Below the pieces are notes generated by a model that did not search any database, was not told where the DNA came from, and saw only the letters and a list, made by a program, of their open reading frames with translations. Positions 7,797 through 14,362 of a stretch of DNA of 15,776 nt are shown piece by piece (the stretch's first letter is position 1; every line of letters starts with the position of its first letter). The stretch is from Streptosporangiaceae bacterium (GTDB taxonomy: Bacteria; Actinomycetota; Actinomycetes; Streptosporangiales; Streptosporangiaceae): NCBI GenBank assembly GCA_030045295.1, contig JASIGD010000336.1, positions 1 through 15,776 of the forward strand, read 5' to 3'. A program made the translations under genes and the position numbers.

Positions 7797-8006
7797 TCAG
7801 TGCTCGTGCTCGTACTTGAACGAGAGCTGTAGCTTGGTCCGGAAGGTGATCGCCCCGCTCTCATCCAGGTGGATGTCCTGCTTGAGCACCTCGGCCACCC
7901 GGAGGTCGTGGAGGGTATCACCCGCAGTCTTCAGTGCGTGCGCTGCCGCGTCTTCCCATGACGTGGTGCTCGTCCCGATAATTTCGATTACCTTGTAGGT
8001 GCTCAT
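7797..8006 (-). CDS. Dodecin-family protein, calcium-dodecin (Rv0379) type
   Basis: A complete 69-residue dodecin, a small beta-alpha-beta-beta protein that assembles into hollow dodecamers. It starts STYKVIEIIGTSTTSWEDAA and ends in KLQLSFKYEHEH. ATG 8006 has GAGGAGG upstream with good spacing. Flavin-binding dodecins carry a Trp in the central strand (about residue 36) that stacks on flavin; here that segment reads DLRVAEVLKQDI, without the Trp. This and the N-terminal pattern resemble M. tuberculosis Rv0379, described as a calcium-binding dodecin rather than a flavin store. Flavin binding by this copy is therefore doubtful. It precedes the acyl-CoA ligase on the same strand, and a functional link is unproven. 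Confidence 0.93.
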   Translation of the reverse strand: MSTYKVIEIIGTSTTSWEDAAAHALKTAGDTLHDLRVAEVLKQDIHLDESGAITFRTKLQLSFKYEHEH

Positions 8007-8679
8007 GGCATCCTCCTCGTGGCGGCCCCTGGCCCTCACACCGCGCCGCGGGTAGCAGGCCGCCGCTGACATGACATCAGTCCTGCTGGCTCGGAGCACC
8101 GCATGCGGCGCCCCTTCTACGCCAGATGATCGGCGAGATGGCGTGTCGGTGAAAGGCCGGAAGTCCCGCCTAGGCAGGCCAAACTGCCCCTCATGGCCAG
8201 TCGCTGGCCAAAGCCCCGCGTCCCCGGTGCTCGGCCGCACCGGCCCCGCGGGCACCGGGCCGGCCCAATGGCCGTGGCAAACCGCAGGACCCGCAGGAAT
8301 CCGGAATCCATCAGGGGTGGGCCGTGCGGTACTGCCGCTCGGGCTGGTGTTCTGGGCCTTTGGCGAGCGCAAGCGGCGCGCCGGCCTGCTGGGCATCGCC
8401 GTGACGGTGCGGGGTCCTTCCGGGGACGAGCCCGCGCGCCGGTGACGCGTCGTGAGGCTTTCGCGGCTGGACGGGCGGTACGGAACGGCCAGTTGTGGGC
8501 CGCATCCCCTTTGGGAGCTCGCTGGGCGGTTCCAGGTCGTGGGAAGGCGGCGCTTGATGCTGGAGGGGCGGACACGTACACTCCGTGGGCCATCCCCGGA
8601 TCTGAGCCCCAGCCAGGACTTGCACTTACCGCTATGAGCCGTAACGTTCACGGAACGGTCCGCGCATAGGGTTCGGTTC
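8007..8679. other. 673-nt gap between dodecin (-) and membrane protein (+), no recognised gene
   Basis: This divergent intergenic region must hold the promoters of both flanking genes, but I see no convincing promoter hexamers. Open frames across it have Pro/Arg/Gly-rich compositions typical of non-coding high-GC DNA. One exception is the end of a plus-strand frame at 8071-8445. There, residues just before the stop read VLPLGLVFWAFGERKRRAG and LLGIAVTV, like one or two membrane helices with a positively charged turn. It has no good start or relatives I recognise and may be a decayed membrane-gene fragment. Confidence 0.4.
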
Positions 8680-9864
8680 ATGAGTGTTCGTCTGGGATCG
8701 GCGAGGACCTGGAGAGTGGTGCTCGGCGTCCTGGTTGTGGCGTCTTTCGCCGCCGCGGTCCCGCTGACCGTGCTGTCGGGTCAGATTTTTAACGCCCTGG
8801 TGGCGGCGGCGATCGGCGTTCCCTGCGCGGTGGTGGGCTGGCTGGTGACCCGGCGCCAGCTGGGGAACCCGATCGGCTGGCTGTTCCTGGGGACCGGCGT
8901 CTTCATGTTCTTGTCCACGGCGGGCGGGGATTACGGGTATTACGTCTACCGGCTCGGGCACCACCTTCCCCTGGGCGCGGCGGGGTCGGCCTTGTCCCAG
9001 TTCTGGGGTCTCAGCCTGGTGCTGTTCGGCGCCGTCGTCCTGCTGTTCCCCGACGGCAGGCTGGCTTCGCGCGGGTGGCGGTGGGCCCTGCGGGTCTACT
9101 GCGTGGCCTTCGCGCTGTTGGTCCTGGCGACCTGCGTGGCGATTGCCGGTGCCCTGGCCGCGCATCCGGTCCGCGTGGACTCCTCGGGGGGCCTGGCCGC
9201 GGTGGATCACGCGGGCGGCTGGTTCGGCGCCGTCCAGGGCCCGCTCGGCGCCGTGACTATCGGGCTGTCGGTGGCCTTCATCGCCCGGCAGGCGCTGAGC
9301 TGGCGGCGCAGTAGCGGGGACCGGCGCCAGCAGCTGAAGTGGCTGGCCAGCGGCGGCGCCGTTACGATCATCTGCCTTTTCCTGGTGGTGTCCTTCAGCA
9401 ATTCAGGCGTCCCCGTGATCGGGCTGGCCTGGTTCGGGGTCGCTGCGCTTCCCGCGTCGATCGGGGTGGGCATCCTGAAGTACCGGCTGTACGAGATCGA
9501 CCGGATCATCTCCCGGACCCTGGCCTACGCGATCGTGACCGGGCTGCTGGTCGGCGTGTACGCTGGGCTGGTCCTACTCGCCACCCAGGTGCTCAAGCTC
9601 CACCACAACACCGTGGCGGTGGCCGCGGCCACCCTGGTGGCGGCCGCGCTGTTCAATCCGGTCCGGCGGCGGGTGCAGCACGCCGTCGATCGCCGGTTCA
9701 ACCGGGCCCGCTATGACGCCGAACGCCTGGTGGCGGCGTTCGCGGCCCGCCTCCAGGACGCGGTGGACCCTGATGTGGTCCGCGCCGATCTGACCGGCAT
9801 GGTCCATACCGCTCTTGAGCCGACTCACGTGTCGATGTGGATCCGCCGTGCCGAACGGCGTTGA
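8680..9864 (+). CDS. Multi-span membrane protein resembling the sensor half of actinobacterial histidine kinases
   Basis: A 394-residue membrane protein with about eight to ten hydrophobic segments in the first ~300 residues. A charged conserved stretch follows, including YRLYEIDRIISRTLAYAIVT, then a helix pair, then RRRVQHAVDRRFNRARYDAE and DLTGMVHTALEPTHVSMW. This arrangement is common in actinobacteria, both as stand-alone proteins and as the N-terminal sensor region of histidine kinases. No kinase, HAMP or GAF domain follows: the frame stops at 9862-9864 soon after the juxtamembrane helix. ATG 8680 gives a plausible signal-anchor N-terminus, but the ribosome binding site is weak. It stands alone on its strand. 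The biochemical role is unknown; a membrane sensor or scaffold is an inference. Confidence 0.8.
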   Translation: MSVRLGSARTWRVVLGVLVVASFAAAVPLTVLSGQIFNALVAAAIGVPCAVVGWLVTRRQLGNPIGWLFLGTGVFMFLSTAGGDYGYYVYRLGHHLPLGAAGSALSQFWGLSLVLFGAVVLLFPDGRLASRGWRWALRVYCVAFALLVLATCVAIAGALAAHPVRVDSSGGLAAVDHAGGWFGAVQGPLGAVTIGLSVAFIARQALSWRRSSGDRRQQLKWLASGGAVTIICLFLVVSFSNSGVPVIGLAWFGVAALPASIGVGILKYRLYEIDRIISRTLAYAIVTGLLVGVYAGLVLLATQVLKLHHNTVAVAAATLVAAALFNPVRRRVQHAVDRRFNRARYDAERLVAAFAARLQDAVDPDVVRADLTGMVHTALEPTHVSMWIRRAERR

Positions 9865-9948: not shown

Positions 9949-10416
9949 CTATGTCGCCGTGCGGCTGTGGCCCGGGGCGCGCCGGGCGGGCCGCTCACGG
10001 CAGAGCCCGGCGCTGGCGCCGGGCCAGCGACGCCGCGTAGCGGCGGCGCCTTGATCCTTATTACGGCCAATATCGGCAACGCAGAGTTCCTCCGCAGGCA
10101 CGTCGAGGAAGTGCAGTTCGACACCGACGCCAAGGCGACGAGCCGCGGTTCGCATCTCGTCACGTTCGACCCGTGCCCAGAGCCCGAAGTCGAGGACCAC
10201 GCTTAGGCCGAGGCGCAGGACGTCTTGAGCGAGGCGCCAGAGTTCGTGGTCGATCTTGTCCCGGGTTGTCGCGTCCCAGGGACTGGAACCCAGAGCCCAT
10301 AGCCATTCATCCTGCGTCAGGCGCAAGGCGCTCCGGTCCGCGGCTAGTTGCGTCGCGAGGGCGGTCTTACCCGAACCGGGCAGCCCGCAGGTGAGAATCA
10401 GCCGGGCTTCGCTCAC
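9949..10416 (-). CDS. P-loop kinase-like ATPase with degenerate C-terminus
   Basis: Residues 1-111 match the small predicted P-loop kinases (zeta-toxin/AAA-33-like) found across actinobacteria. Walker A GLPGSGKT is at 11-18, followed by LRLTQDEWLWALGSSPWD and VVLDFGLWARVERDEMR with the acidic switch residues, and then VELHFLDVPAEEL. Relatives continue after this point with ELWRRVxxRN and a C-terminal lid of some 50 residues ending near a Phe-Asp-Pro motif. Here, from about 10085, the frame reads CVADIGRNKDQG and then low-complexity Arg/Ala-rich sequence overlapping strong hairpins, so the native C-terminus seems replaced. The start is GTG 10416, after AAGAGG. The ATP site is intact; activity without the lid is doubtful. 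The substrate of this family is not established. Confidence 0.7.
   Translation of the reverse strand: MSEARLILTCGLPGSGKTALATQLAADRSALRLTQDEWLWALGSSPWDATTRDKIDHELWRLAQDVLRLGLSVVLDFGLWARVERDEMRTAARRLGVGVELHFLDVPAEELCVADIGRNKDQGAAATRRRWPGASAGLCRERPARRAPGHSRTAT
10005..10045. repeat. Pair of adjacent GC-rich hairpins inside the kinase C-terminal tail
   Basis: GCCCGGCGC-tg-GCGCCGGGC (10005-10024) is a perfect 9-bp inverted repeat. It is followed by CGCCGC-gta-GCGGCG (10031-10045). They lie in the part of the kinase frame that no longer resembles its family. They look like intergenic terminator or repeat DNA now read as coding. Confidence 0.45.
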
Positions 10417-10774: not shown

Positions 10775-11956
10775 TCAGGGTCGTGCGGCCTTGGGCTCCT
10801 TCATGGTGAGGCCGATGAGGGCGGAAACAACCGGCATGACGGTAAGGGCGCCGATGGCCATCGTCAGGCCGGAGCGGTCGGCGATGATGCCCAGCAGCGG
10901 GGCGGCCAGCCCGCCGATGCTCACCGCCAGGCCGAGGGTGACCCCGCTGGCCGTCCCGACGCGATCAGGCAGGTAGTCCTGCCCCAGAGTGACATGCAGC
11001 GAGAACGGAATGTACAAAGCGACGGCGGTGGCGGCGATGGCGGCGAAGATGGCCGGGCCGGGCATCAGCCAGAGGGAAGCCAGGCAGGGGATGGCGGCCA
11101 GGTAGCTGGCGCGGACGGTCTGGATGCGCCCATGGCGGACGGCAAGACGGCCGCCGAGAATGGTGGCTCCGGCGCCCACCGCGTAAAAGGTGATCAGTGC
11201 TATCTCGCCGGTGCCCGTACCTGCGTGCAGGCGCTGCTCGGTGAACAATCCCAAGAAGGTGCCCAGGCCGAACGTGACGACTGAGCGAGCCACGACGACA
11301 GCTGTCAGCTTGGTGAACCCCTTCCAGTCATCGGTAAGGGACCTGCCCGCCGCGGCGGCCCTGGCGGGGTCATCCGGTGGCGGCGTCCGGTGTAGCGCTA
11401 CGGCAGTCAGCAGCGCGCACGCCACGGCCGGGATGACCAGCGAGACAGTGCCGCCAGGGCCGACCGCGCTGAGAACGAGCCCGACCAGGACCGGGCCGAG
11501 AGCGAACCCGGCGTTACCGCCCATGGCGAACCAGCTCATCGCCACATGGGATCCGTGCGCGGCCCGCCGGGCCAGCCGGGCCGCCTCGGGATGGTAGGCC
11601 GCAACTCCCAGGCCCGACAAGGCGACGGCAAGCCAGGTCAGCGCGTACGAGCGGCTGAGCCCGGACAGCGCGATCCCTGCTCCGGCTATGCTCATGCCCG
11701 CGGGCACCAGCCATGGCATCCGGTGCCGGTCCGTCAGCAGCCCGAACACCGGCTGGGTGACTGAGGACAGCACCGTCGCCGCCACCATGATCCCGCTGGC
11801 GGCCGCGTAATCCCAATGGCGAGCAGCCACGAACACCGGGATCAGCGCGGGCACCGCCCCCTGGTAGATGTCATCGACACCGTGGCCCAGGCTGAGCAAG
11901 GCCCCCATTCGGGCGGACGCGGCTGATGCCTTGACCGCAGAGGTTACCGTAGTCAT
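10775..11956 (-). CDS. MFS transporter, fosmidomycin-resistance (FSR)-like
   Basis: A 12-helix major facilitator, predicted to export small molecules using the proton gradient. The N-terminal segment LLSLGHGVDDIYQGAVPALI and the loop VFGLLTDRHRMPWLVPAG are typical of the FSR-like branch. A central cytoplasmic loop (PPDDPARAAAAGRSLTDDWK) separates the two six-helix halves, and the protein ends with ADRSGLTMAIGAL and TMKEPKAARP. The first ATG in frame is 11983, but I prefer ATG 11956 (MTTVTSAVKASAASARMG). The nine extra residues are unlike family N-termini, and the later start leaves room for a promoter toward the divergent AraC gene. Divergent pairing with an AraC regulator suggests control by it. 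The substrate is unknown. Confidence 0.88.
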   Translation of the reverse strand: MTTVTSAVKASAASARMGALLSLGHGVDDIYQGAVPALIPVFVAARHWDYAAASGIMVAATVLSSVTQPVFGLLTDRHRMPWLVPAGMSIAGAGIALSGLSRSYALTWLAVALSGLGVAAYHPEAARLARRAAHGSHVAMSWFAMGGNAGFALGPVLVGLVLSAVGPGGTVSLVIPAVACALLTAVALHRTPPPDDPARAAAAGRSLTDDWKGFTKLTAVVVARSVVTFGLGTFLGLFTEQRLHAGTGTGEIALITFYAVGAGATILGGRLAVRHGRIQTVRASYLAAIPCLASLWLMPGPAIFAAIAATAVALYIPFSLHVTLGQDYLPDRVGTASGVTLGLAVSIGGLAAPLLGIIADRSGLTMAIGALTVMPVVSALIGLTMKEPKAARP

Positions 11957-12010
11957 GGTTCCATGCTCGGCGGCCAGCGGCATGGCGGGCTACCGTTAAA
12001 CTGACAACCT
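11957..12010. promoter_or_regulatory. Divergent MFS/AraC promoter region
   Basis: Only 54 nt separate the preferred MFS start from the AraC start, so both promoters must overlap here or within the gene ends. It includes an AT-richer stretch CTACCGTTAAACTGACAACC just before the AraC ATG, which has no clear ribosome binding site and may be leaderless or nearly so. Read on the minus strand this stretch contains TTGTCA, a possible -35 for the MFS gene. No clear AraC operator repeats are visible. Confidence 0.4.
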
Positions 12011-12820
12011 ATGCCGGAAAGCCGCCAACCCGCGCTCGCCGGCCCGGCGGCCAGCCGCCGCCTGGCCGCGGGCGAGAATGTCGCCGAACACCACCACGAC
12101 CGCGCCCAGCTGGTCTACCCGGCCAGCGGGCTGCTGGCCGTCACCACCGAGCGTGGCACCTGGATCGCCCCACCACAGCGAGCAGTCTTGATTCCTGCCG
12201 CGGTCCGCCACCAGCACCGCTCCTATGGCCTCACCGACATGCGGACCGTGCTGTTCCAGCAGGCGCCTCCAGCCCGCTCCACCGGGCGGCCCGCGGTCAT
12301 CGCCGTGTCGCCCCTGTTGCGCGAACTGATCCTCACCCTTTCCGCGCCCACCCGCCAGCCCGCCCCGGCCAGGCGCCGCCTGGAGCACGTCGCACTCGAC
12401 CAGCTCGCTGAATCCGCAGAACAGCCATTGCATCTGCCGCAGCCCACCGACCAGCGCCTCCAGGCAGCCACCGCGCTTATCACCGGCGATCTGGCCAGCA
12501 ATGCCACCTTGGCCGAGATCGGCCACCGCGTCGGCGCCAGCGAGCGCACGCTCAGCCGCCTGTTCCGCGACGAATTCGCCATGACCTTCCCCCAGTGGCG
12601 CACCCAGCTCCGCATCCACCACGCCCTAGTGCTCCTCGCTCGCGGAGCCACCGTCACCAGCACCGCCATCGCCTGCGGGTGGGCCAACCCCACCTCCTTT
12701 ATCGACGCCTTCCGCCACGCAGTCGGAACAACGCCAGCCGTATATCAAGCCCAGCTTCGAGGCGGCCGCATCCTTATGCCAGCCATCAGCTCCCCTGGCC
12801 GCAGCAGACAGCAACGGTGA
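12011..12820 (+). CDS. AraC/XylS-family transcriptional regulator with cupin sensor domain
   Basis: A 269-residue regulator. The N-terminal half (to about 140) is a cupin-type ligand pocket with HHHDRAQLVYPASG and the strand set WIAPPQRAVLIPAAVRHQHR. The C-terminal domain has the two AraC helix-turn-helices: the first near 165-186 (LAEIGHRVGASERTLSRLF), the second near 213-237, ending in the family's GWANPTSFIDAFRHAVGTTP. This domain order matches regulators such as E. coli NimR, which controls a divergent MFS exporter; the same gene arrangement is seen here. It most likely regulates the adjacent MFS gene and itself in response to a small toxic compound. The last 15-20 residues (PAISSPGRSRQQR) are an unstructured tail. 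It appears intact. Confidence 0.92.
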   Translation: MPESRQPALAGPAASRRLAAGENVAEHHHDRAQLVYPASGLLAVTTERGTWIAPPQRAVLIPAAVRHQHRSYGLTDMRTVLFQQAPPARSTGRPAVIAVSPLLRELILTLSAPTRQPAPARRRLEHVALDQLAESAEQPLHLPQPTDQRLQAATALITGDLASNATLAEIGHRVGASERTLSRLFRDEFAMTFPQWRTQLRIHHALVLLARGATVTSTAIACGWANPTSFIDAFRHAVGTTPAVYQAQLRGGRILMPAISSPGRSRQQR

Positions 12821-13026
12821 CAGCAACAGCGACGATCGGCGACAGCGCATAATGCTCGCACGATCCGTGCCAACTGGGGATATGTCCGGACTGAAAGCGG
12901 AAGGCCGTTCCACAGCGCCGTACCGCCGAGAACCTGGCCTACGCATCACGGACCCGTGCCCCCGAGATGTCCCCGAACTGCCGTCAACAGCCAACGATCG
13001 TCACCGGCAGCAACCTGCGAACATGA

Positions 13027-13055
13027 AGCTGGCGCGGCCTTCGAGCCCGCCAGCT
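13027..13055. repeat. Inverted repeat next to the tRNA remnant
   Basis: AGCTGGCG (13027-13034) and CGCCAGCT (13048-13055) form a perfect 8-bp stem with a 13-nt loop. It ends 15 nt before the tRNA anticodon-loop sequence. It may terminate AraC transcription or be an arm-binding site of the recombinase that used the tRNA; the sequence does not decide. The rest of 12821-13026 shows nothing recognisable. Confidence 0.35.
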
Positions 13056-13070
13056 GCGCATGAGAACACC

Positions 13071-13115
13071 CTCGTAATGCGTAGGTCATCGGTTCGATTC
13101 CGATAGACGGCTCCA
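13071..13115 (+). other. 3' half of tRNA-Thr (CGT): probable integration (att) site scar
   Basis: The sequence contains the anticodon loop CTCGTAA (13071-13077, anticodon CGT), the 3' anticodon strand TGCGT and a 5-nt variable loop AGGTC. A perfect T arm follows, ATCGG-TTCGATT-CCGAT (13088-13104), then the 3' acceptor strand AGACGGC, discriminator T and CCA (13105-13115). The required 5' half is absent: the bases at the 5' acceptor position (starting about 13040) do not pair with AGACGGC, no D arm is present, and only 3 of 5 anticodon-stem pairs can form. A clean 3' half beginning at the anticodon loop is the product left at one end when an integrative element inserts into a tRNA gene by tyrosine recombinase. 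The full tRNA would then lie beyond the other end of the element. The tRNA identity is firm; the att interpretation is an inference. Confidence 0.75.
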
Positions 13116-13155
13116 TAAAGCGGCAGCTCAGGATGCTTAAATTGCGCGCTTTATG
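13114..13155 (+). terminator. Hairpin immediately after the tRNA CCA
   Basis: CATAAAGCG (13114-13122) and CGCTTTATG (13147-13155) are a perfect 9-bp inverted repeat with a 24-nt loop. It starts within the CCA end and is unusually AT-rich for this DNA. The position fits the native terminator of the original tRNA-Thr gene. Confidence 0.5.
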
Positions 13156-13555: not shown

Positions 13556-14362
13556 ATGGAGAACCGGAGCCTAGGCCGGGGCCGGGTCGGCGTGCCGGTC
13601 GTCGGGCTGGGCACCTGGCGTCGGCTGGAGGCCGCTGCCGCGGCTGGCCGGGACCACGCGCTCATCGAGGCCGCCCTCGCGGCTGGTATCCGGGTCATCG
13701 ACACCTCCCCCATGTACGGGGCCGCCGAGCGGCTGCTGGCGGACGAGGTGGACGGCCACCGCGGGCAGGTCTTCATCGCGGACAAGATCTGGACCCCGTC
13801 GGCGGCGGAGGGCGCGGCGCAGCTGTCCCGCGCGGCGGGCTGGTACGGCGGCCGGGTCGACCTGATGCAGATCCACAACCTGGTGGCCTGGTCGGCGCAC
13901 CTGCCGATGCTCGAGGCGGCCCGGGACCGGGGGCTGGTCGGCCTGATCGGAGCTACCCACTACTCCCCGGCCGCGTTCGGTGAGCTCGCCGAGGTCATGG
14001 GCACCGGCCGCATCGACACCGTCCAGGTGCCCTACAACCCGGCCCACCGGGAGGTCGAGAGCACCATCTTGCCGCTGGCCGACGACCTCGGACTCGGCGT
14101 CCTGCTCATGCGTCCGCTCGGCGAGGGGCAGCTCATGCGCCGACCGCCCAGCCCGGTCGAGCTCGCGCCGCTGCGTCCCTTCGGCATCACGACCTGGAGC
14201 CAGGCCCTGATCAAGTGGGGCCTGAGCGATCCGCGGGTGCACGTTTCCCTGACCGCCACCGCCCAGCCCGGCCGACTCACCGAGAATGCCGCCGCAGGAT
14301 CGCCGCCGTGGTTCGGGCCGGACGAGCGGGCCTACGTGCTGCGCCTGATCGCAACGCACTAA
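13556..14362 (+). CDS. Aldo/keto reductase family oxidoreductase
   Basis: A 268-residue protein with the aldo/keto reductase barrel, expected to reduce carbonyl compounds with NADPH in the cytoplasm. The catalytic tetrad is visible: Asp 49 and Tyr 54 in VIDTSPMYGAAERLL, Lys 77 in FIADKIW and His 107 in DLMQIHNLV. Strand-loop motifs follow as expected: GLIGATHYSPAAF, DTVQVPYNPAHREVE, GVLLMRPLGEG and, near the end, QALIKWGLSDPRVHVSLTAT. I start it at ATG 13556 with GAGGGTGGCGG upstream, because family members begin with a strand like RSLGRGRVGVPVVGLGTW. The frame is open further upstream, but those residues are Cys/Gly/Pro-rich and unlikely to be translated. It is somewhat short but complete. 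The substrate is unknown. It stands alone, just right of the tRNA scar. Confidence 0.9.
   Translation: MENRSLGRGRVGVPVVGLGTWRRLEAAAAAGRDHALIEAALAAGIRVIDTSPMYGAAERLLADEVDGHRGQVFIADKIWTPSAAEGAAQLSRAAGWYGGRVDLMQIHNLVAWSAHLPMLEAARDRGLVGLIGATHYSPAAFGELAEVMGTGRIDTVQVPYNPAHREVESTILPLADDLGLGVLLMRPLGEGQLMRRPPSPVELAPLRPFGITTWSQALIKWGLSDPRVHVSLTATAQPGRLTENAAAGSPPWFGPDERAYVLRLIATH

Follow-up and report, generated by a model that had tools for sequence, protein, structure and literature searches.

An orphan 3' half of tRNA-Thr(CGT) as a probable integration scar in a Streptosporangiaceae contig

What left the 3' half of a tRNA-Thr(CGT) gene standing alone between two protein-coding genes, and does anything of the element that might have put it there survive beside it? 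We addressed these questions on a stretch of 15,776 nucleotides from a Streptosporangiaceae bacterium, analysed at its full length and referred to here as the window. The half occupies positions 13071-13115 of the + strand and, by direct reading and by comparison with relatives, forms an att-type core that begins with the anticodon loop and ends with an encoded CCA. Its parts can be read directly on that strand: the anticodon loop CTCGTAA (13071-13077, with the CGT anticodon at 13073-13075), the 3' anticodon stem (13078-13082), the variable loop (13083-13087), the T arm ATCGG-TTCGATT-CCGAT (13088-13104), the 3' acceptor strand AGACGGC (13105-13111), the discriminator T (13112) and CCA (13113-13115). 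This 45-mer is identical at 44 of 45 positions to the intact tRNA-Thr(CGT) genes of relatives and is therefore not a chance resemblance; the best similarities in the viral loci that we fetched extend over 47 of 48 and 48 of 50 bases (E 3e-15). ARAGORN called no tRNA anywhere in the window, and Rfam gave no match in it at gathering scores and, with a lax threshold, two matches that both lie far below those scores. The bases immediately 5' of the loop show no agreement with the tRNA, and the 40 bases before 13071, compared with five tRNA 5' halves, score 7.5, which is no better than chance (the same score is reached at 82 of 2000 random window positions, and tRNA-Thr sites called by ARAGORN score 18-32). 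A degenerate 5' half was also considered; a gapped alignment before 13071 can be built, but is equalled at those 82 of 2000 positions and, in a first run with two references, at 106 of 1500, and the candidate was rejected. Direct reading, ARAGORN and the upstream-score control thus bear out the first-pass annotation, which had described an orphan 3' half of tRNA-Thr(CGT) whose 5' half is absent.

The window half is cut exactly at the anticodon loop, and the cuts of comparable halves cluster at the loop or a few bases before it. Among 28 halves in bacterial genomes, the number of bases held in common with the tRNA before the loop was zero in 12, one in 12 and three in four. Many IMG/VR viral contigs bear the same half, and at 53 such sites the number was zero in 16, one in 11, two to seven in 14 and all 11 tested in 12; the 27 sites with zero or one base include L077 and L110, which begin with the core or with the base ahead of it. 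For five sites the proximity of an end prevents a verdict (L061, L064, L077, L094 and L110, of which L064 and L094 show letters of the 5' half). ARAGORN called 10 of the 53 viral sites as tRNA, one of them (L070) as a misfitting tRNA-Ala. A 15-mer of the bases that follow the half was present in 34 stretches of viral contigs. Among the matches listed for the phage collection (20 of 100 records) all lie over the tRNA half, and so do those listed for the plasmid collection (20 of 23 records), except for one row in a coding region. This pattern bears on the simplest alternative, namely that the locus is a tRNA pseudogene whose 5' half was lost through ordinary deletion, with no element involved. 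The acceptor-strand change described below is a sign of decay that would be expected of a pseudogene too, but the cut coincides with the place where the halves of viral contigs and relatives are cut, and a random deletion would rarely end there; we therefore consider a pseudogene of this kind very improbable.

The same half occurs repeatedly in the family. Relatives were chosen via the neighbouring reductase, the closest being two Streptosporangiaceae MAGs and Trebonia kvetii; in these three nearest genomes the 45-mer was not found at up to three mismatches, and across 200 family genomes the same search found it in 26, at 31 sites that comprise 25 intact tRNA-Thr(CGT) genes and six halves. A looser pattern matches 217 of 341 family genomes, 48 of which hold at least two copies, a count made by eye from a table that includes intact genes and in which the decayed halves of G085 and G020 do not appear; by this count tRNA-Thr(CGT) is a frequently used insertion site in the family. 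The geometry was read from 40 sites in 18 genomes among the matches listed, 17 of which have two or three sites, all on one contig. In 15 of these 17 genomes the intact tRNA comes first and is followed on the same strand by one or two halves, with a half lying 1.9-26 kb from the intact tRNA and neighbouring sites about 1.0 to 23 kb apart. The exceptions are G148, where the two sites read are both halves (a third is present on a different contig), and G063, which has two intact genes. The usual order is also found in G010, G085, G152 and G020. In G154 and G225 the T arm differs between the intact gene and the half, as expected if an element brought its own 3' half. Tandem arrays, with two halves after one intact tRNA-Thr(CGT) and in its orientation, were seen in G094, G093, G165, G120 and G099.

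Integrase genes accompany these tRNA genes. For four relatives the tRNA and the half were retrieved as one locus, and in three of them a tyrosine integrase gene follows the tRNA: in G010 (L171) it adjoins the tRNA, and a RepSA replication protein is encoded between the tRNA and the half, while in G085 (L172) and G152 (L173) an integrase adjoins the intact tRNA. No integrase was found in the 0.8 kb that separate tRNA and half in G020, where the two ORFs tested had no Pfam match; in G035 (L175) an ORF beside the intact tRNA matches an integrase domain weakly, without reaching the Pfam cut-off. The G010 element itself (L171:2737-9372), which lies between tRNA-Thr(CGT) and half, is AICE-like and 6.6 kb long. 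L174 and L176 show the attP arrangement, with the integrase 3' of the half. From the geometry in relatives it follows that the element of the window, if there was one, lay on the left (5') side of the half; and since the integrase sits beside the tRNA, at the opposite end of the element from the half, its absence near the window half is to be expected. These observations support the proposal of the first-pass annotation that the half was left by a tyrosine-recombinase element, with the element on the left, and indicate integration in the anticodon loop.

The tandem arrays raise the possibility that 13071-13115 is an internal junction of such an array, so that the DNA on its right would be mobile too, and the right-hand reductase is indeed patchy in the family. 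In the attP arrangement, however, the integrase lies directly 3' of the half, and among ORFs of at least 100 amino acids the 2.66 kb to the right hold no integrase match. We regard an internal junction as highly improbable.

Because the half is cut exactly at CTCGTAA and lacks its 5' half, and because the same geometry recurs in relatives, we read 13071-13115 as an attR-type site, a reading that is well supported. More specifically, we propose that it is an old footprint whose element has been lost or displaced, with a probability of roughly 0.6. An element with a tyrosine integrase would have borne its own tRNA-Thr(CGT) 3' half in attP, and strand exchange within the seven-base anticodon loop or at its edge would have joined this half to the host 5' half, restoring the tRNA at attL and pushing the old 3' half of the host to the far end of the element, where its function would have been lost. 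By analogy with the relatives, we infer that the same event took place here. Since then the element has most likely been deleted or eroded, or a rearrangement has parted it from the scar, with ordinary chromosome-type and accessory genes remaining on the left.

The genes around the half speak to this second part of the proposal. The first gene on its left encodes an AraC-family regulator (12011..12820, + strand, PF12833) and diverges from a gene for a fosmidomycin-resistance-like MFS transporter (10775..11983, - strand, PF07690); the first gene on its right encodes an aldo/keto reductase (13556..14362, + strand, PF00248). Pfam searches of the 52 window ORFs of at least 100 amino acids gave no match to an integrase or replication family, and G+C content, at 0.665-0.730 in 1-kb windows, is flat across the junction, with no shift in composition there. 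Both results favour loss of the element, which in this contig is probably no longer intact. AICEs are defined by a replication protein and an FtsK-like transfer protein, and these were not found among the same 52 ORFs. When 1908 ORFs from 57 mobile loci were compared with the window, they matched it solely at 13049-13123, over the tRNA core. PHROGs searches with ten ORFs matched a truncated kinase to polynucleotide kinase and weakly to other P-loop families including helicase (E 0.006), the AraC gene to regulator families and one junk ORF at E 0.34; defence-gene profiles matched none of the eight window ORFs searched. The kinase-like ORF (AAA_33, 9949-10416) is apparently cut short, and it matches phage polynucleotide kinase profiles as well.

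The chief rival to an old footprint is an element that is still present, as a long island or prophage on the left whose restored tRNA-Thr(CGT) and integrase lie beyond the left contig end. Such an island would obey the same orientation rule as in relatives, and in L171-L173 the integrase is found next to the tRNA and well away from the half. Relatives have several spacings above 13 kb, and since these reach 13-23 kb, an element longer than the 13.07 kb of left-hand DNA is possible. The AraC gene, moreover, is without a close relative in the family, its best match being 57% identical in the 341 relatives and 76% identical in the protein database. Against this stand, besides the even G+C and the lack of a recognisable integrase or replication gene in these 13 kb, two sets of genes that would lie inside the island: a pspA-family gene, whose family is present in 337 of 341 relatives at E<=1e-50 (although the window copy may be a paralogue, some genomes carrying two or three), and a pair of ABC transporter genes that are 80-85% identical at the DNA level to those of G119, G027 and G039. 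On balance a surviving island seems to us possible, though doubtful.

The assignment of particular genes to either side is a separate matter. The first-pass annotation had counted the MFS and AraC genes, or even the whole left tract, as island, and the reductase side as old chromosome. The Pfam results and the flat G+C lend this no support, and neither does gene conservation: the reductase, although 85-86% identical in Trebonia kvetii and the two Streptosporangiaceae MAGs, was found in just four of 341 family genomes at E<=1e-70. With a near-universal pspA family on the left and a patchy reductase on the right, conservation marks neither the left as foreign nor the right as native; if anything it suggests the opposite. 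The AraC gene and the MFS gene could nevertheless be surviving cargo. The best other matches of the MFS protein are 67-73% identical, some of them named FSR family by their source, and the two genes are adjacent in 14 of the 20 AraC loci of relatives that we compared.

No conserved gene order was seen around the window among the relatives compared, and so no empty site was available for comparison. The loci approached via the reductase (L001-L004, L006, L007 and L010) share just the reductase with the window, and ARAGORN called no tRNA-Thr in L001-L025; attempts to establish synteny via the ABC transporter, acyl-CoA ligase, pspA and AraC loci likewise failed. The groupings that stay together are pairs, namely the two transporter genes, the acyl-CoA ligase gene and a phosphoribosyltransferase-like gene (L202), pspA and a release-factor-like gene (L205), and the AraC and MFS genes. 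Two further observations concern the left tract. The frames 2464-2934 and 1556-2578 overlap on the - strand, and perhaps represent one gene with a frameshift; the former has a weak match, below the cut-off, to a bacterial archaeo-eukaryotic release factor family (baeRF_family10), and a homologue of the latter adjoins the release-factor-like gene in L205. A long ORF at 7797-8681 carries a Dodecin domain at its C-terminal end (residues 228-291), is otherwise without Pfam match and probably has its true start further in.

The single base by which the half departs from intact genes is an A in place of G at 13107 (+ strand) in the 3' acceptor strand. AGACGGC occurs at none of 124 other sites, a count that excludes sites close to an end, those with a different T-arm pattern and those with identical surroundings, whereas AGGCGGC is read at 64 of the 65 intact sites and at 55 of the 59 halves. 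The A would break one pair with the usual 5' acceptor strand GCCGCCT, and the change is consistent with decay or loss of function after displacement; an unusual host tRNA is conceivable as another source of the base. The same base bears on the possibility that the contig is chimeric, the assembly having been joined at the tRNA repeat. The window appears to be a complete contig of 15,776 bp and probably comes from a metagenome, and the 45-mer is nearly identical in many actinobacteria, points that would suit such a join; however, a repeat with a base found at 0 of 124 other sites would not, and the AraC sequence recurs on five contigs and the MFS cluster on four (these are gene counts and do not cover the junction itself). 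A chimera appears to us the least probable of the explanations weighed here.

The first-pass annotation had also reported a 9-bp hairpin directly after CCA. The inverted repeat exists (13114-13122 and 13147-13155, + strand; -14.4 kcal/mol, z -2.3), but it starts within CCA rather than after it. The 55 nucleotides past the window acceptor fold at -15.5 kcal/mol, and the corresponding downstream fold is equal or stronger at 57 of the 65 intact tRNAs and at 50 of the 59 halves, so the repeat may have served the former tRNA gene as a terminator, but a weak one at best. An 8-bp perfect inverted repeat left of the junction, after the AraC gene (13027-13055, + strand; -20.1 kcal/mol, z -3.8), forms a stronger hairpin and may terminate the AraC transcript. 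We also considered an inverted second core at 12935-12950, about 120 bases left of the half and complementary to it at 14 of 16 bases. This level of match was reached by none of 120 other 250-base stretches and by 12 of 3000 shuffles, which is rarer than expected and speaks for something real; in gapped scoring against the tRNA, however, other places in the window reach 19 and 17.5 compared to 16 here, and the match is probably due to chance.

Taken together, our results indicate that one contig can suffice to recognise a lone tRNA half as an integration scar with fair confidence, and that such a scar by itself does not say which of the neighbouring genes were mobile. The half might, in addition, still be recognised by integrases and serve as a standing second landing site, which we think improbable; were it so, new tRNA-Thr(CGT) elements would insert away from the tRNA gene and leave the tRNA untouched.

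Scars of this kind are well described in print, and in light of earlier studies the present one is an ordinary finding. Islander (PMC4383910) defines islands by an intact tRNA that lies upstream on the same replicon and in the same orientation, a displaced fragment and an integrase inside the island, and a further study (PMC9897764) describes tRNA-gene fragments at island ends as widespread and reports one case in which an inversion separated fragment and intact gene. Akin to such islands, the window has a displaced 3' fragment that reaches the end of the tRNA gene (13071-13115 extends to CCA) and lies outside any conserved protein domain, the domains found with Pfam and PHROGs (E up to 0.01) sparing the half and the nearest being those of AraC and the reductase. 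It differs in that within the window the fragment is accompanied neither by an intact tRNA nor, among the 52 ORFs of at least 100 amino acids, by an integrase (PF00589), so that no island can be delimited from it. As regards actinomycete elements, Streptomyces tRNA-Thr is reported to host a family 13 AICE and an ICE (PMC9513070), and pSE211-type integrases belong to integrative and conjugative elements in tRNA-Thr (PMC3218068). As opposed to these elements, the window is without an AICE gene; the likeness holds at the level of tRNA-Thr, and a RepSA-bearing element does occupy tRNA-Thr(CGT) in G010. In mycobacteriophage attP and attB sites (PMC10865867), the common core is 30-45 bp long and lies over the tRNA 3' half, with the anticodon loop as a common place; although no phage was identified in the window, its 45-bp core resembles these sites in both length and position at the anticodon loop.
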